From: Amaricoccus sp.
Lineage (GTDB): Bacteria; Pseudomonadota; Alphaproteobacteria; Rhodobacterales; Rhodobacteraceae
Direction: 5' to 3'
Assembly: GCF_017993425.1 (NCBI RefSeq)
Contig: NZ_JAGOMQ010000033.1
Span: 1-43,038 of the forward strand
DNA length: 43,038 nt
The position numbers and the translations under genes were made by a program. Shown here in pieces: positions 19,767 through 24,849 of the stretch. The notes below the pieces were generated by a model, which was not told the DNA's origin, did not search any database, and was given only the letters and a program-made list of their open reading frames with translations. The stretch's first letter is position 1; each line of letters begins with the position of its first letter.

Positions 19767-19840
19767 GCCGGGCCGCGGGTTGTTCACGCGTGAAAATTAC
19801 CTAAGCCATTGATTTTACGTGAGTGGAGTTTTTTGGATCA

Positions 19841-20196
19841 CGGATGTCGACGCTGCACGGCAGGAGCCGGTCGCCGCCCGAGGCTGCGGCGCTCGCCCCG
19901 ACCGAAGCGGGCTCTGCCCGCGAGGCTGCGGCGCGACAGGCGAAAGCACGGCTTTCGCCGCGCCGACGGCCGGAGCGCGTTGGCGCGGAGGCCGTGGGGG
20001 GTTCAGATTTCCCCGTTGTGCGCAATCCGGCCGTGATCGCCCCGGCGAGCGCGGCAACGCGCTCGCCCCCCGCAGGGGCGATCGCGGACGGATTTGCCAC
20101 GGGTCAAATCCGTCTGGCTTCACTGCCCCGCACCCTCCCGACCGATATTTCTCTCCACTGTCGTGTAGTGTGAACGGATGTCGACGCTGCACGGCA
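19841..20196 (+). repeat. Exact 22-base direct repeat bordering copy A
   Basis: The same 22 bases, beginning CGGATGTCGACGC and ending TGCACGGCA, occur at 19841-19862 and 20175-20196. One lies before copy A of the 221-bp repeat and one before the truncated copy C, so it looks like the leading module of a mosaic repeat. The first begins inside a short region with no other feature. Confidence 0.75.
19899..20166 (+). repeat. Structured dispersed repeat, copy A
   Basis: Core of 221 bp (19899-20119), matching copy B at 24575-24795 without gaps at 208 of 221 positions by eye. After a diverged 31-base segment of equal length in both, a shared CTCTCCAC-GTCGTG end follows to 20166. The core contains inverted repeats: 19907-19921 (6 bp, 3-base loop), 19939-19959 (9 bp, 3-base loop), 20044-20067 (10 bp, GCAA loop) and 20087-20114 (10 bp). 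An outer 19-bp imperfect stem (20025-20043 with 20075-20093) encloses the third. Could be a REP/MITE-like element or encode a structured RNA. Confidence 0.85.
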
Positions 20197-20234
20197 TCCG
20201 CCCTGCCGGATCCACGGGACGCGCGAGCGCCGAG

Positions 20235-20301
20235 CGACCGAAGCGGGCTTGCCCGCGAGGCCACGGCGCGACAGCTGGAGCGCGTTGGCGCGGAGGCCGT
20301 G
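20235..20301 (+). repeat. Structured dispersed repeat, truncated copy C
   Basis: Matches the first part of copies A and B (from CGACCGAAGCGGGC to GGCGCGGAGGCCGTG) but lacks about 30 bases that make the GCGAAAGC hairpin. It ends where the others go on into the GNRA-loop stem. It is preceded by the second copy of the 22-base repeat. Confidence 0.75.
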
Positions 20302-20346
20302 AGTAAGGGTCGACCAGCGGCGACATCCCGCCTCGCGACGGCTCCC

Positions 20347-20374
20347 GCAGGTTGACATGCGCATGTCAACCTGC
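20347..20374. repeat. Perfect 28-bp palindrome
   Basis: Each half is GCAGGTTGACATGC; the two halves are exact reverse complements with no spacer. It lies 320 bp before the endolysin ATG and 46 bp after repeat copy C. Possible roles are a dimeric regulator's operator or a cruciform-prone site; with no T-tract it is not an obvious terminator. Confidence 0.8.
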
Positions 20375-20460
20375 TCGACGCGGAGCGGTTCGGACGGGGA
20401 GCGCGCAAGCTTCAAGTGAGTCGAACGGCGCCGCGAAATGCGGCGCTGATGACTGTGCGA

Positions 20461-20530
20461 TGATTTTCACCGTTTATATTAAAAATATTTGCAAATATAT
20501 TTCGAATTATATTTGCGCACAAATAAGCAT
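20461..20530 (+). promoter_or_regulatory. A+T-rich probable promoter region of the endolysin-holin genes
   Basis: The most A+T-rich stretch in this part of the window. It contains a perfect 14-bp palindrome ATATTTGCAAATAT (20485-20498), a second ATATTTGC at 20509-20516, and the inverted pair TATTTG-CGCA-CAAATA (20510-20525). The repeated half-sites look like a binding site array. GANTC pentamers lie on either side (GAGTC at 20418-20422, GATTC at 20662-20666). A defined -35/-10 pair could not be fixed. Confidence 0.4.
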
Positions 20531-20693
20531 GATCGAGATGCCGTCCGTTCGCATCTGCCCGGACCTTCCGACAGCATCGCGATTGGCCGACCGTGGCAGG
20601 GACGAGCGTTCGGCGCTTGCGGGATCAATCCAATCTTATGGTTCCGGCGCCACGCTCCGGCGATTCCGATCACGATCATGCAAGGAGCACCGG

Positions 20694-21305
20694 ATGCACT
20701 CGGTAGAGAGCATCGCCGCCGAGATCGTGCGCCGCGAAGGGGGATATGTGAACGACCCCGACGATCCCGGCGGCGCGACCAACCACGGCGTCACCATCCA
20801 CACCATGCGCGCGCTGGGGCGCGACATCACCGGCGACGGGCGCATCGACGCGGCCGACGTCAAGGCGCTCGGCGCCGACGAGGCGACGGCGATCTACGTG
20901 CGCCACTACTTCGAGCAGCCGAAGCTGAACCTGCTGCCCGCCTGCCTGCAGGCGAGCGTCTTCGACATGCAGGTCAACGCCGGCGCCAACGCCGTGCGCA
21001 TCCTGCAGCGCCTCGTCACCGCCATGGGCTTTCCGGCGGGCGACGACGGCGTCGTCGGGCCGCAGACCGTCCGCGCCGTCGAGGCGGCGGCCGCGGCGGC
21101 GCCGGAGCACATCGCCGACGCCTACGGCATCGAGCGGCGCAACTACTACTACCGGCTCGCCGACCAGCGGCCCGCGAGCCGCAAATACGCGCGCCGGCGC
21201 GACGGCGGCAAGGGCGGCTGGATCGTCCGGGCCGAGGAGTTCATCGCGGAGCGGTTCCACTTCACGGCCGCGGATCATGCGGAGCGGGTGCGGGCATGGG
21301 GATGA
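20694..21305 (+). CDS. Holin-associated N-acetylmuramidase (GH108 endolysin, GTA-type)
   Basis: A 203-residue peptidoglycan hydrolase. The N-terminal glycoside hydrolase 108 domain has REGGYVNDPDDPGGATNHGVT (14-34), with catalytic Glu15, and HYFEQPKLNLLP. The C-terminal part (about 100-190) fits the predicted peptidoglycan-binding domain usually fused to it. The ATG has AAGGAG seven bases upstream. The stop overlaps the holin start. GH108 endolysin plus 3-TM holin is the lysis pair used by Rhodobacter capsulatus to release gene transfer agent particles, and the pair is commonly found as a chromosomal unit in Rhodobacterales. No phage or GTA structural genes are present in the window. Confidence 0.92.
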   Translation: MHSVESIAAEIVRREGGYVNDPDDPGGATNHGVTIHTMRALGRDITGDGRIDAADVKALGADEATAIYVRHYFEQPKLNLLPACLQASVFDMQVNAGANAVRILQRLVTAMGFPAGDDGVVGPQTVRAVEAAAAAAPEHIADAYGIERRNYYYRLADQRPASRKYARRRDGGKGGWIVRAEEFIAERFHFTAADHAERVRAWG

Positions 21306-21904
21306 TGGGACGGATCATCGGGCTGGGATCGGCCGCCGTGACCGTGGGCGAGGCGGTCAGCGACGTCGCCGAGGTCTTCGTCGGCAACCGCGCCGAGCGC
21401 GACGCCGCCAACGCCGAGGCGTTCTCGGCGGTGGTCGAGCAGGCGGGCGCCGAGTACGAGCGCGCGCCCGCCGGCCCGTTCGACGGCTGGGTCAACGGGC
21501 TGAACCGCCTGCCCCGCCCGCTGCTGGCGCTGAGCACGATCGGGCTCTTCGGCTACGCCATGGTGGAGCCTAACGGCTTCGGGGTGCGGATGCAGGGGCT
21601 GTCGCTGGTGCCGGACCCGCTCTGGTGGCTGCTCGGGGCGATCGTGTCGTTCTACTTCGGCGCGCGCGAGCTGCACTACATGCGCGACCGCGCGCCGGCG
21701 CGGACCTTCGCGGCGGCGACGACGAAGAAGCTCGCCGTCCCTGCCGCGGCGAAGGCCGCGCCGGCGGCGAGCGGCCAGCTGCGCCCGAAGCCCCGCCCCG
21801 CGGCGATGCGCCGGGCCACGCCGGCCGCCGCGTCGCACGCCGCGGATCCGGGCTACAACGCCGCCCTCGAGGAGTGGCGGAACCTCGGGCCGGCCGCCGG
21901 CTGA
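21296..21904 (+). CDS. Holin family protein (GTA_holin_3TM)
   Basis: A 202-residue holin-like membrane protein. An N-terminal weakly hydrophobic helix (about 6-28, IIGLGSAAVTVGEAVSDVAEVF) is followed by a charged stretch, GPFDGWVNGLNRLPRPLL, and two clear membrane segments at about 74-92 and 108-125 (PLWWLLGAIVSFYFGARELHY). That is the layout of the GTA 3-TM holins, which let the endolysin reach the wall. Residues 130-202 form an Ala/Pro-rich tail. The start at 21296 overlaps the endolysin gene by ten bases; ATGs at 21302 and 21305 are alternatives. Confidence 0.87.
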   Translation: MGMMGRIIGLGSAAVTVGEAVSDVAEVFVGNRAERDAANAEAFSAVVEQAGAEYERAPAGPFDGWVNGLNRLPRPLLALSTIGLFGYAMVEPNGFGVRMQGLSLVPDPLWWLLGAIVSFYFGARELHYMRDRAPARTFAAATTKKLAVPAAAKAAPAASGQLRPKPRPAAMRRATPAAASHAADPGYNAALEEWRNLGPAAG

Positions 21905-22025
21905 CCCGAGGCCGACCTGCCGGGACGCGGGGCGCTGCGCCCGCGTCCCGGTCCACGCCGGCGTGGTTTGCACGCCCCGCGGTTTCGGCGCATAACGGGG
22001 CCGACCCCGCGGAGCGCCAGGGAAA

Positions 22026-24008
22026 ATGATCACCGAGCTCGGGCATTTCGCCCTGATCCTCACCTTCCTCGTGGCGATCGTGCAGGCCGTCGTGCCGATG
22101 GTCGGGGCCCAGCGCGGCTGGACGGACTGGATGCGGGTCGCGGTTCCGGCCGCGGGCGTGCAGTTCGCGCTCGCCGCCTGCGCCTTCCTCGCGCTGGTCC
22201 ATGCCTTCGTCGTCTCGGACTTCTCGGTGCGGCTCGTCGCCGAGAACTCGCATTCGGCGAAGCCGCTCATCTACAAGATCAGCGGGACCTGGGGGAACCA
22301 CGAGGGCTCGATGCTGCTCTGGATCCTGATCCTGACGCTCTTCGGCGCGATGGTCGCCTGGTTCGGGACCAACCTGCCGCCGACGCTGAAGGCGCGGACG
22401 CTCGCCGTGCAGGGGCTGATCGCGGCGGCGTTCCTCGCCTTCATCCTGTGGACGTCGAACCCGTTCGCGCGGCTCGACTTTCCGCCGATCGACGGGGGCG
22501 ATCTCAATCCGCTGCTGCAGGACCCCGGGCTCGCCTTCCATCCGCCGTTCCTCTACCTCGGCTATGTCGGGCTCTCGATGGCCTATTCCTTCGCCATCGC
22601 CGCGCTGATCGAGGGGCGGGTCGACGCCGCCTGGGCGCGCTGGGTGCGGCCGTGGACGCTGCTCGCGTGGTCGTTCCTGACCATCGGCATCGCGATGGGG
22701 AGCTACTGGGCCTACTACGAGCTCGGCTGGGGCGGGTGGTGGTTCTGGGATCCGGTGGAGAACGTCTCGTTCATGCCGTGGCTGCTCAGCTGCGCCTTGC
22801 TGCATTCGGCGATCGTGGTGGAGAAGCGGGACGCGCTGAAGGCGTGGACGATCCTGCTCGCCATCCTCGCCTTCTCGTTCTCGCTGATCGGGGCCTTCGT
22901 GGTGCGCTCGGGGATCATCACCTCGGTCCATGCCTTCGCGACCGATCCGGGGCGGGGGGTGTTCCTGCTGCTGATCCTCGGGGCGTTCATCGGCGGGTCG
23001 CTGACGCTCTATGCGGCGCGGGCGCATGTGATGCGCTCGACGGCGGCGTTCTCGACGGTGAGCCGCGAGGCGGGGCTGCTGGTGAACAACCTGCTGCTCG
23101 TCACCGCGACGCTGGTGGTGTTCTTCGGGACGATCTGGCCGCTGGTGGCGGAGGTGCTGACCGGGCGGAAGGTGTCCGTGGGGGCGCCGTTCTTCGACAC
23201 GGCGTTCACGCCGTTCATGGTGGCGCTGGCGGCGATCCTGCCGGTCTTCGCGACTTTGCCGTGGAAGCGCGGCGATCTCGGGCGGGCGATGCGGCCGCTC
23301 CGGGGGGCGCTGGCGCTGTCGGTGGCGCTGGGGGCGCTGGCGTGGACGGTGCAGACCGGGGGGTCGATGCTCGCGCCGGTGGGGGTGACGCTGGCGGCGT
23401 GGCTGGTGCTCGGCTCGGCGGTCGAGGTGGCGGAGCGGGTGCGGCTGGGGCGGGCGCCTCTGGGCGAGAGCCTGCGGCGGGCGCGGAATTTGCCGCGGGC
23501 GGACTGGGGGAAGGCGATCGCCCATGCGGGGCTCGGGCTCAGCATCTTCGGGATCGCCTGCGTGACCGCCTGGGCGCGCGAGGACATCCGGGCGATGGCG
23601 GTGGGCGACAGCGTGGCGGTCGCCGGCTACGAGCTGCGGCTCGACGGGGTGGAGCGCCGGGAGGGGCCAAACTATTTCGCCGACACGGGCCGGGTGACGG
23701 TGACGCGGGGGGGCCGCGAGGTGGCGGTGATGACGCCGGAGCGGCGGGTCTATCCGGTGCAGGGGATGCCGACGACCGAGGCGGCGATCGACCGGGGACT
23801 GACGCGGGACCTCTATGTGACGCTCGGGGATCCGCAGCATGGCGGGGGATGGGCGGTGCGGACCTATGTGAAGCCGTTCGCCAACTGGATCTGGCTCGGG
23901 GCGCTGGTGATGGCGGCCGGGGGGGCCGTCAGCCTGAGCGACCGGCGGTATCGGGTGGGGGCGCCGGCGCGGCGGCGGCCGCCGGCGGGGTTGGCGCCGG
24001 CGGAATGA
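22026..24008 (+). CDS. ccmF: Cytochrome c maturation protein CcmF
   Basis: Inner-membrane heme lyase component of the System I cytochrome c maturation pathway, which with CcmH attaches heme from CcmE to apocytochrome c in the periplasm. The 660-residue multi-pass protein contains KISGTWGNHEGSMLLW and the tryptophan-rich WWD motif (GWGGWWFWDPVENVSFMPW, about 233-251), plus the late periplasmic domain with NYFADTGRVTV and MPTTEAAIDRGLTRDLYVTLG. AGGGAAA precedes the ATG. The ccmE gene usually upstream is not here; the holin gene takes that place after 121 bp. ATGA overlap with ccmH. Confidence 0.97.
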   Translation: MITELGHFALILTFLVAIVQAVVPMVGAQRGWTDWMRVAVPAAGVQFALAACAFLALVHAFVVSDFSVRLVAENSHSAKPLIYKISGTWGNHEGSMLLWILILTLFGAMVAWFGTNLPPTLKARTLAVQGLIAAAFLAFILWTSNPFARLDFPPIDGGDLNPLLQDPGLAFHPPFLYLGYVGLSMAYSFAIAALIEGRVDAAWARWVRPWTLLAWSFLTIGIAMGSYWAYYELGWGGWWFWDPVENVSFMPWLLSCALLHSAIVVEKRDALKAWTILLAILAFSFSLIGAFVVRSGIITSVHAFATDPGRGVFLLLILGAFIGGSLTLYAARAHVMRSTAAFSTVSREAGLLVNNLLLVTATLVVFFGTIWPLVAEVLTGRKVSVGAPFFDTAFTPFMVALAAILPVFATLPWKRGDLGRAMRPLRGALALSVALGALAWTVQTGGSMLAPVGVTLAAWLVLGSAVEVAERVRLGRAPLGESLRRARNLPRADWGKAIAHAGLGLSIFGIACVTAWAREDIRAMAVGDSVAVAGYELRLDGVERREGPNYFADTGRVTVTRGGREVAVMTPERRVYPVQGMPTTEAAIDRGLTRDLYVTLGDPQHGGGWAVRTYVKPFANWIWLGALVMAAGGAVSLSDRRYRVGAPARRRPPAGLAPAE

Positions 24009-24463
24009 TGCGGGGGATCTTCCTGGCGCTGGCGCTGGTCGCGCCGCTTGCGGCGGCGGCGATCGGGCCGGGCGAGGCGTTGCCGGACCCGGCGCTGGAG
24101 GCGCGGGCGCGGGGGATCACCAAAGAGCTGCGCTGCGTGGTGTGCCAGTCGGAGTCGATCGACGAGTCGAACGCCGACATCGCGCGGGATTTGCGGCTGC
24201 TGGTGCGGGAGCGGATCACGGCGGGGGACAGCGACGACGAGGTGCTGGCCTATGTGGTGGACCGCTACGGCGAGTTCGTGCTGTTCCGGCCGCCGATGAC
24301 CGCGGCGAACGCGCCGCTGTGGCTGGCGGGGCCGGTGATGCTGATCTTCGGGTCGGCCCTTGTCGCGGCGGTGCTGCGGCGGCGGGCGCGGGAGGCGCGG
24401 ATACCGCGGGACGGGTTGAGCGCCGAGGAGCAGGCGCGGCTCGATGCGCTGATGAAGGAGTGA
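24005..24463 (+). CDS. ccmH: Cytochrome c maturation protein CcmH
   Basis: Periplasmic thiol-redox subunit that reduces or holds the apocytochrome CxxCH cysteines for heme attachment by CcmF. The 152 residues have a signal peptide (MMRGIFLALALVAPLAAAAIG), the LRCVVC motif with Cys44 and Cys47, QSESIDESNADIARDLRLLV, YVVDRYGEFVLFRPP, and a single C-terminal membrane anchor near 104-122. The ATG overlaps the ccmF stop; a second ATG at 24008 is possible. After it comes a 386-bp repeat-containing gap. Confidence 0.96.
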   Translation: MMRGIFLALALVAPLAAAAIGPGEALPDPALEARARGITKELRCVVCQSESIDESNADIARDLRLLVRERITAGDSDDEVLAYVVDRYGEFVLFRPPMTAANAPLWLAGPVMLIFGSALVAAVLRRRAREARIPRDGLSAEEQARLDALMKE

Positions 24464-24849
24464 GGCGCGGGGGCGGCACACAGCGTGACAAAGGTCAACC
24501 AACTGTAAGATAACGATAATTGTCTCGAATTAATTTGTCGCACCACCTCGCGCGGGGGATCGAGGGCCGGTGAGCGACCGAAGCGGGCTTTGCCCGCGAG
24601 GCTGCGGCGCGACAGGCGAAAGCATGGCTTTCGCCGCGCCGACGGCTGGAGCGCGTTGGCGCGGAAGCCGTGGGGGGCGCCGATTTCCCGGTAGCGCGCA
24701 ATCCGTCCGTGAGCGCCCCGGCGAGCGCGGTAACGCGCTCGCCCCCCGCAGGGGCGATCGCGGACGGATTTGCCACGGGTCAAATCCGTCTGGCTCAGGC
24801 GTCGCGGCCAGCCTCGGGCCGGGCCTCTCTCCACCGTCGTGCGGCGGTT
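24464..24849. other. 386-bp non-coding stretch with repeat copy B
   Basis: Between ccmH and the convergent holC gene. The first 75 bases include an A+T-rich segment (24500-24540); the rest is the structured repeat. No separate gene or clean terminator was seen, although the repeat's hairpins could stop transcripts from both sides. Confidence 0.7.
24575..24842 (+). repeat. Structured dispersed repeat, copy B
   Basis: Full-length copy, same orientation as copy A, 4.7 kb away. The 221-bp core ends at 24795 and the shared CTCTCCACC-GTCGTG end at about 24842. Differences from copy A largely spare the stems: the loop of the 9-bp hairpin is ATG instead of ACG, and the 10-bp stem's tetraloop is GTAA instead of GCAA, both of the GNRA type. 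It ends a few bases before the holC stop codon. Confidence 0.85.

Follow-up and report, generated by a model that had tools for sequence, protein, structure and literature searches.

The transposon Tn7 recognises a site, attTn7, at the 3′ end of a gene and inserts a fixed number of base pairs past it. Prokaryotic miniature inverted-repeat transposable elements (MITEs), among them ERIC, QMITE, RUP and BOX, are described as short, hairpin-forming and mostly intergenic, with inverted repeats and target duplications, and ERIC is reported at 30–711 copies per genome (PMC10969869). Insertion sequences (ISs) that target repetitive extragenic palindromes (REPs) include ISRm22 of the IS4 family, ISPpu9 and IS1397 (Tobes & Pareja 2006, PMC1525189). 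ISRm22 is described there as entering the axis of the palindrome, with 6-bp repeats, and thereby breaking the REP (PMC1525189). Here, we analyse a 221-bp repeat in a 43,038-nucleotide stretch of Amaricoccus sp. (positions 1 to 43,038 of contig NZ_JAGOMQ010000033.1, RefSeq assembly GCF_017993425.1), which we call the window. The repeat had been singled out in a preliminary description made from the letters of the window alone. We consider it very probable, for the explanation taken as a whole, that the 221-bp unit forms the core of a non-autonomous transposon 324 bp long (a MITE), which would be moved in trans by an IS4-family transposase and would prefer targets at a set offset from a palindrome.

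Copies of the repeat

The two window copies of the 221-bp unit align without gaps and are identical at 208 positions (94.118%), just as the preliminary description had counted by eye. Their similarity is far beyond chance. The truncated third copy that it mentioned is present at about 20235–20301, and matches in two pieces with 92.7% and 93.9% identity. The genome (4.24 Mb in 102 contigs; G000) contains many further copies, which the preliminary description had proposed to look for. A search with the unit gave at least 40 near-full-length places at 92–100% identity and two partial ones, with 40 of the 432 first-look candidates scored. The fetched loci yield at least 105 different core sequences that align over 200 columns or more and are 81–100% identical to the window copy; cores placed on contigs occupy 106 different genome places in a recount without loci L116–L125. 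The terminal hairpin of the core has 148 forward and 145 reverse matches with at most two mismatches, largely the same sites on both strands, and the reversed control has none.

Ends, length and target duplications

The core is enclosed by terminal inverted repeats of about 15 bp, CACACTRCACGACAG, which have 142 matches with at most one mismatch in the genome and none in the reversed control. The left ends are of two main types, CAGGAGCCGG... and CACCTGTCTGCCC.... To avoid selection by a flanking motif, we used a core-only set, chosen by the core alone (L001–L030 and L186–L225). Forty of the 100 listed terminal-hairpin places were fetched, from those not yet fetched. Some of the skipped places had already been fetched, being near the 33-bp motif described below, so the core-only set if anything understates the association with that motif. 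The set comprises 76 core-bearing elements, 50 of which have both ends (at most three mismatches), nine have one end and 17 have none.

The two-ended elements are 311–374 bp long, and their commonest length, 324 bp, matches the window element exactly. Target-site duplications, another proposed check, are 9 bp long and agree at eight or more positions in 43 of the 50 two-ended elements: nine of nine positions in 31, eight in 12, and three to six in seven (best match, with an offset of ±1 allowed). Inverted repeats, 9-bp duplications and length are features of a MITE, and the element is short and non-coding and carries no transposase. Insertions and deletions of 1–2 nucleotides are frequent across the aligned copies, and speak against a coding role, in agreement with the earlier view that the unit is not protein; a protein-coding origin was rejected on these grounds.

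Tandem elements (L054, L056, L156 with L006, and window 19840–20190) have a common target duplication in the order element–9 bp–element, which suggests that insertions recurred at one junction or that there was unequal exchange. In L014, L017, L027 and L030, the core is flanked by a different end pair, variants of CACACTTCTCC... and ...CCGGGATGTGTG. The same core may ride on other transposon ends in these four loci.

Relation to IS4-family insertion sequences

Several contigs start with the MITE inverted repeat followed by other DNA, and these are the ends of ISs. The same inverted repeat is present in this genome on five IS left ends and on two of three right-end transposase fragments, and the reading frame of two of the three fragments terminates within the inverted repeat. 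A 368-residue relative in the sister genome G009 matches the IS4-family model NF033591 with 193 bits (cut-off 152) and the Pfam domain DDE_Tnp_1 with 51 bits (cut-off 23). Relatives of the G009 transposase occur in four of 149 genomes of a family sample (E ≤ 1e-40) and in three of 390 genomes of an order sample (E ≤ 1e-50). The shared ends make an IS4-family IS the likely source of transposase for the MITE.

A palindromic repeat in more than 100 copies could also be of the REP or REPIN type, spread by a REP-associated tyrosine transposase (RAYT) with a Y1 domain. Core relatives without IS4-type ends, found in the sister genome G001 and in Rhodobacter sp. contigs, fit such an origin. However, the Y1_Tnp profile (PF01797) has no match in this genome, compared with matches in five of 14 control genomes, and the ends of the element are IS4-type inverted repeats with 9-bp duplications. 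We therefore disfavour the RAYT origin, whose probability we hold to be minimal, and interpret the element as a MITE with an IS4-family partner.

Position of insertions relative to palindromes and gene ends

A 33-bp motif, TTCACGCGTGAANATTNNCTAAGNCATTGATTT, recurs in the flanks of the elements. It has 105 copies with at most three mismatches in this genome and none in the reversed control; at the same threshold, it is absent from ten sister genomes. The palindrome of the window copy, the X site, is centred 60 bp from the inverted repeat of the window element (L124). Sixty motif copies were fetched out of the first 63 listed (100 listed, 105 counted), and the end of an IS or a MITE is found at this spacing in all three skipped places (C8, C19 and C38), which had been fetched previously. 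An inverted repeat with at most three mismatches starts 32–35 bp beyond the tail side in 29 of the 60 copies. On the opposite side of the motif, the sole inverted-repeat match within 500 bp lies at a distance of 487 bp (L134).

The spacing extends to palindromes of other sequences. In the core-only set, a palindrome of any sequence (at least seven of eight arm pairs) is centred 58.5–62.5 bp outside an end in 30 of the 50 two-ended elements, against a background of 2.1% per random flank, and the distances peak at 60–61 bp. Palindromes with this spacing include TATCACGCGTGATA, CGGCTAACACGCGTGTTAGCCG, GATGTCCCACAGTGGGACATC and GGTTGCGCACGCGCAACC. The tail YTGAWW is a tighter anchor than the palindrome. 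Measured from the end of YTGA, its distance to the inverted repeat is 35–38 bp in 27 of 109 flanks, exactly 36 bp in 16 of them, and only seven matches are found at any other distance; 26 of the 34 tail matches are at 35–37 bp. Insertion is strikingly non-random.

Related signals are found in other genomes, and the ISs resemble the MITE in their spacing. The looser pattern CACGCGTG...YAA...YTGA has 138 matches in this genome, 98 in G005, 77 in G006, 33 in G008, at most one in each of the other seven genomes of the genus sample, and none in the control. G005, G006 and G008 carry their own versions of the motif (CACGCGTGATAG...GTAACTACCTGA in G005). Six of 12 distinct IS left-end flanks from the genus have a palindrome at 58.5–62 bp (two in this genome, L049 and L050, one in G008 and three in G009), and five of these six also have the tail at 35–37 bp. 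In another genus (G044), the single IS copy is 62 bp from the 24-bp palindrome GGGGCGTCCGAGCTCGGACGCCCC and has the 9-bp duplication CTTGGACTT, the length and duplication being judged by eye. Tail-like sequences at 35–36 bp, also identified by eye, occur in L228 and L233, where a strong palindrome is absent.

The palindromes tend to follow stop codons. Twenty-six of the 60 motif copies are located at most 25 bp past the stop of a long same-strand open frame (one of 80 or more codons, or one that continues beyond the stretch), as are 9.4% of random positions, which were not matched for intergenic location. The window motif follows a NUDIX gene. The elements are marked by a motif located close to gene ends, where an insertion does the least harm. 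The fixed spacing might thus be a by-product of survival, in which insertions are random and only those beyond a 3′-end signal persist. Purifying selection, however, should not yield the spread of 2–3 bp seen in the tail distances and the peak of the palindrome distances, and we regard this explanation as improbable.

The palindrome unit might instead be mobile itself and land beside MITEs. Its abundance here and absence from the ten sister genomes indicate that the 33-bp unit spreads or converts fast. Nevertheless, 31 of the 60 motif copies have no recognisable inverted repeat at the characteristic spacing, quite different palindromes and IS copies in other genomes give the same spacing, and the 9-bp duplication sits between motif and element. 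A mobile palindrome is thus very improbable, and we favour a target preference of the MITE and its IS partner.

Hairpin structure of the core and the 3′ module

The consensus fold of 104 of the 105 cores (RNAalifold; the truncated L195 was omitted) is a chain of hairpins with 65 pairs. The mean minor-allele frequency over all 65 pairs is 1.7% in paired and 10.0% in unpaired columns. As a structure derived from an alignment favours constant columns, the contrast was repeated on the fold of the window copy alone, which gives 2.8% and 8.9%. Variation in paired columns is thus a third to a sixth of that in unpaired columns, which bears out the earlier impression that shape is conserved and that differences fall mostly outside stems. 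The values are 1.0% and 9.8% for 59 pairs, with six weak ones omitted. The preliminary description also saw conservation of a GNRA loop, which we reject: in the 93 of 105 copies with the exact stem, the loop is GAAT in 57, GCAA in 20, GCGA in 10, GTAA in two, GCTT in two, GCAT in one and GAAA in one, and only 33 of these are GNRA.

Compensatory changes, named beforehand as a test, are present both in core pairs and in a shared 3′ module. Three of the 65 core pairs have double changes: 77–102 (GC in 96 copies, AU in seven), 79–100 (UA in 65, CG in 22, UG in 16) and 112–130 (in one sequence). Relatives of the 3′ module in Rhodobacter sp. contigs are, among the matches listed, mostly 71–79% identical over about 65–98 columns. 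There the module ends a different hairpin chain, and no CACACT-type ends were recognised around it. The Rhodobacter sp. contigs L090–L115, from metagenome-assembled genomes, contain a hairpin-chain repeat of about 200 bp ending in CGGATTTGACSCGSGTCAAATCCG, with at least 22 distinct module copies in 26 stretches.

The module alignment contains 44 sequences, namely 42 of 47 modules (five truncated ones were omitted) and the two window copies. In it, 96.4% of cells are paired (shuffled mean 88.8), 125 cells have double changes (shuffled mean 52.2) and the covariation score is 0.248 (shuffled mean 0.117); by each of these measures, none of 500 shuffled alignments scores as high. Sliding the partner by 1–3 columns lowers the pairing to 31–45%. 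Pair 7–66 varies within the Rhodobacter copies. Most changes in the module separate the two sources, so independent events are few. Stem conservation and compensatory pairing show that the hairpins are kept by something, be it selection acting on the structure of the DNA or the RNA, or the copying of one arm from the other. The pair tables, read by eye, contain G-U more often than A-C when sequences are counted, with too few independent events to decide between RNA and DNA.

The conserved stems could mark a family of structured non-coding RNA genes or riboregulators that happens to be repeated and functions in the transcript. The double changes in the core (in several copies for two of the three pairs) and in eight of 30 module pairs agree with this, as do the fold of the element DNA (z = −5.2) and a CGGATTT sequence able to pair upstream or downstream. 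Against it, inverted repeats and target duplications account for the dispersal, and the elements occur in both orientations relative to the upstream gene signal. Moreover, the repeat has no Rfam match at the gathering score in the window and five other loci (four from Rhodobacter sp. and one from this genome, L100 among the five); the only matches are a tRNA in the window and one in L100, both away from the repeat. We judge an RNA gene family unlikely. The preliminary description had proposed a structured RNA or a folded mobile element. The mobile element is borne out by the inverted repeats, 9-bp duplications and matching IS4-family IS, and the specific RNA gene finds no counterpart in Rfam. 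The repeat is a structured mobile element; these data do not distinguish RNA from DNA hairpins or demonstrate an RNA gene.

Features of the window

The positions of the MITE copies, their duplications and the neighbouring repeats are listed in Table 1. The second repeat family has a 28-bp perfect palindrome, GCAGGTTGACATGCGCATGTCAACCTGC, at about 20347–20374 of the window. Other copies have a similar inverted repeat, with the end CACGCTACACGACGGAGGCGGC in L012. This family (window 20305–20589; L012, L026 and L159) also occurs near the 33-bp motif. A glycosyl hydrolase 108 gene adjoins a GTA_holin_3TM gene at window 20694–21904, and the two are likely a lysis pair.

Table 1 Positions of repeat-related features in the window.
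Feature	Position	Strand	Remarks
X site (target signal): palindrome TTCACGCGTGAA and tail CTAAGCCATTGATTT	19783..19815	+	Downstream of NUDIX gene; palindrome centre between 19788 and 19789
Left target-site duplication ACGGATGTC	19840..19848	.	Repeated at 20174–20182
MITE copy 1, 324 bp	19849..20172	+	Imperfect left inverted repeat 19849–19863; right inverted repeat 20158–20172
Conserved hairpin-rich core, 221 bp	19899..20119	+	Unit of the preliminary description
3′ module: long two-part hairpin, then CGGATTTGCCACGGGTCAAATCCG	20024..20112	+	Relatives in Rhodobacter sp. contigs
Right target-site duplication ACGGATGTC	20174..20182	.	One extra A at 20173
Second, truncated MITE with other end type (left end ...TGCACGGCATCCGCCCTGCCGGATCC...)	20183..20303	+	Without a core hairpin; the truncated third copy
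Second repeat family copy	20305..20589	.	87% over 290–293 columns in L012 and L026
MITE copy 2, core	24575..24795	+	Left end lost
MITE copy 2, right arm	24796..24846	+	Decayed inverted repeat CCACCGTCGTGCGGCG at 24831–24846 (L013)

Proposed mechanism

We propose that an IS4-family transposase would act in trans on the MITE of about 324 bp, recognising its terminal inverted repeat CACACTRCACGAC. The duplications show that the cut made at insertion is staggered by 9 bp. The preferred insertion point lies about 51–60 bp past the middle of a palindrome, and such palindromes tend to come after stop codons; the tightest measure is the YTGAWW tail, whose YTGA ends 36 bp before the inverted repeat. 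A reader of this target signal is presumed. Landing just past gene ends would avoid damage to genes, which could explain the high copy number. The core is a hairpin chain whose stems are kept, partly through compensatory changes, and whose hairpins presumably have a role. A hairpin-rich repeat of Rhodobacter sp. contigs is similar to the 3′ module but has no such inverted repeats, so the core may derive from an older structured repeat to which IS4-type ends were added.

Several observations weigh against this interpretation. Movement was not observed. In this genome we saw IS ends, at or near the limits of contigs, but no complete copy, and the genome has no match to the G009 transposase at E ≤ 1e-40 (or E ≤ 1e-50), so that an active transposase here is inferred. 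Twenty of the 50 two-ended elements have no scored palindrome at the expected distance, several of them being tandem or having weak palindromes. The tail is missing at 35–38 bp from 82 of the 109 flanks; its absence from about half of all flanks is expected, since these have the signal on the other side. An IS copy in G005 (L070) abuts a palindrome instead of lying 60 bp from it, and seven of eight loci from other genera have no strong palindrome. The control for gene ends is loose; on the tail side of 19 of the 60 copies, a long frame of the opposite strand likewise stops at most 25 bp from the motif. In the module, two of the five covariation measures are weak when set against shuffled alignments: the number of pairs with double changes (eight; shuffled mean 6.4; 12 of 500 as high) and that of further pair types (20; shuffled mean 19.1; 164 of 500 as high). 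The sister genome G001 has core relatives of 72–81% identity at 14 loci without recognisable inverted repeats. No clear inverted repeats were found at the ends of core relatives in G001 (14 loci), G008 (one) and G009 (one), so a decayed MITE and an independent repeat look alike in these three genomes.

With these points considered, we incline, by a small measure, to a broader hypothesis. An IS4-family lineage and its MITEs may read a generic gene-end signal, a variable palindrome with a YTGAWW tail, and insert at a set distance past it. The signal would be an undescribed 3′-end element of these bacteria and would offer a safe haven similar to attTn7 at well over a hundred sites per genome. The cargo would be an older structured repeat captured by transposon ends. 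The insertions form a clean natural data set, with dozens of independent events, for the steering of a cut-and-paste transposase to harmless sites. They also draw attention to a signal that evolves fast and lies close to the 3′ ends of genes, for which a terminator, an mRNA end and a protein-binding site are candidate roles.

Comparison with known systems

Correia/NEMIS elements, further prokaryotic MITEs, resemble the element as well. With ERIC, QMITE, RUP and BOX, as characterised in the account cited above, it has in common the short length, hairpins, inverted repeats, target duplications and mostly intergenic location. It differs from them in its ends and core, in the match of its ends to an IS4-family IS with 9-bp duplications, and in the fixed offset from a gene-end palindrome. 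The terminal inverted repeats are the same as those of the IS4-family element of these genomes (NF033591 group); unlike IS4-family ISs, the MITE has no transposase, and its targeting is offset beyond gene-end palindromes. The likeness to Tn7 concerns the spacing behaviour only, with many sites here instead of one. Among the open-licence papers listed in literature searches, none was seen to describe an IS4-family element or MITE that lies a set distance past a gene-end palindrome and leaves it intact, and no paper turned up with the exact motif and inverted-repeat strings. Like ISRm22, as portrayed in the source cited above, the system belongs to the IS4 family and directs insertion to extragenic palindromes, whereas our elements leave the palindrome, at a distance of about 60 bp, unbroken and have repeats of 9 bp. 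REP-targeting ISs, including one IS4-family member, were already known; offset targeting beyond an unbroken palindrome is a new form of such targeting.

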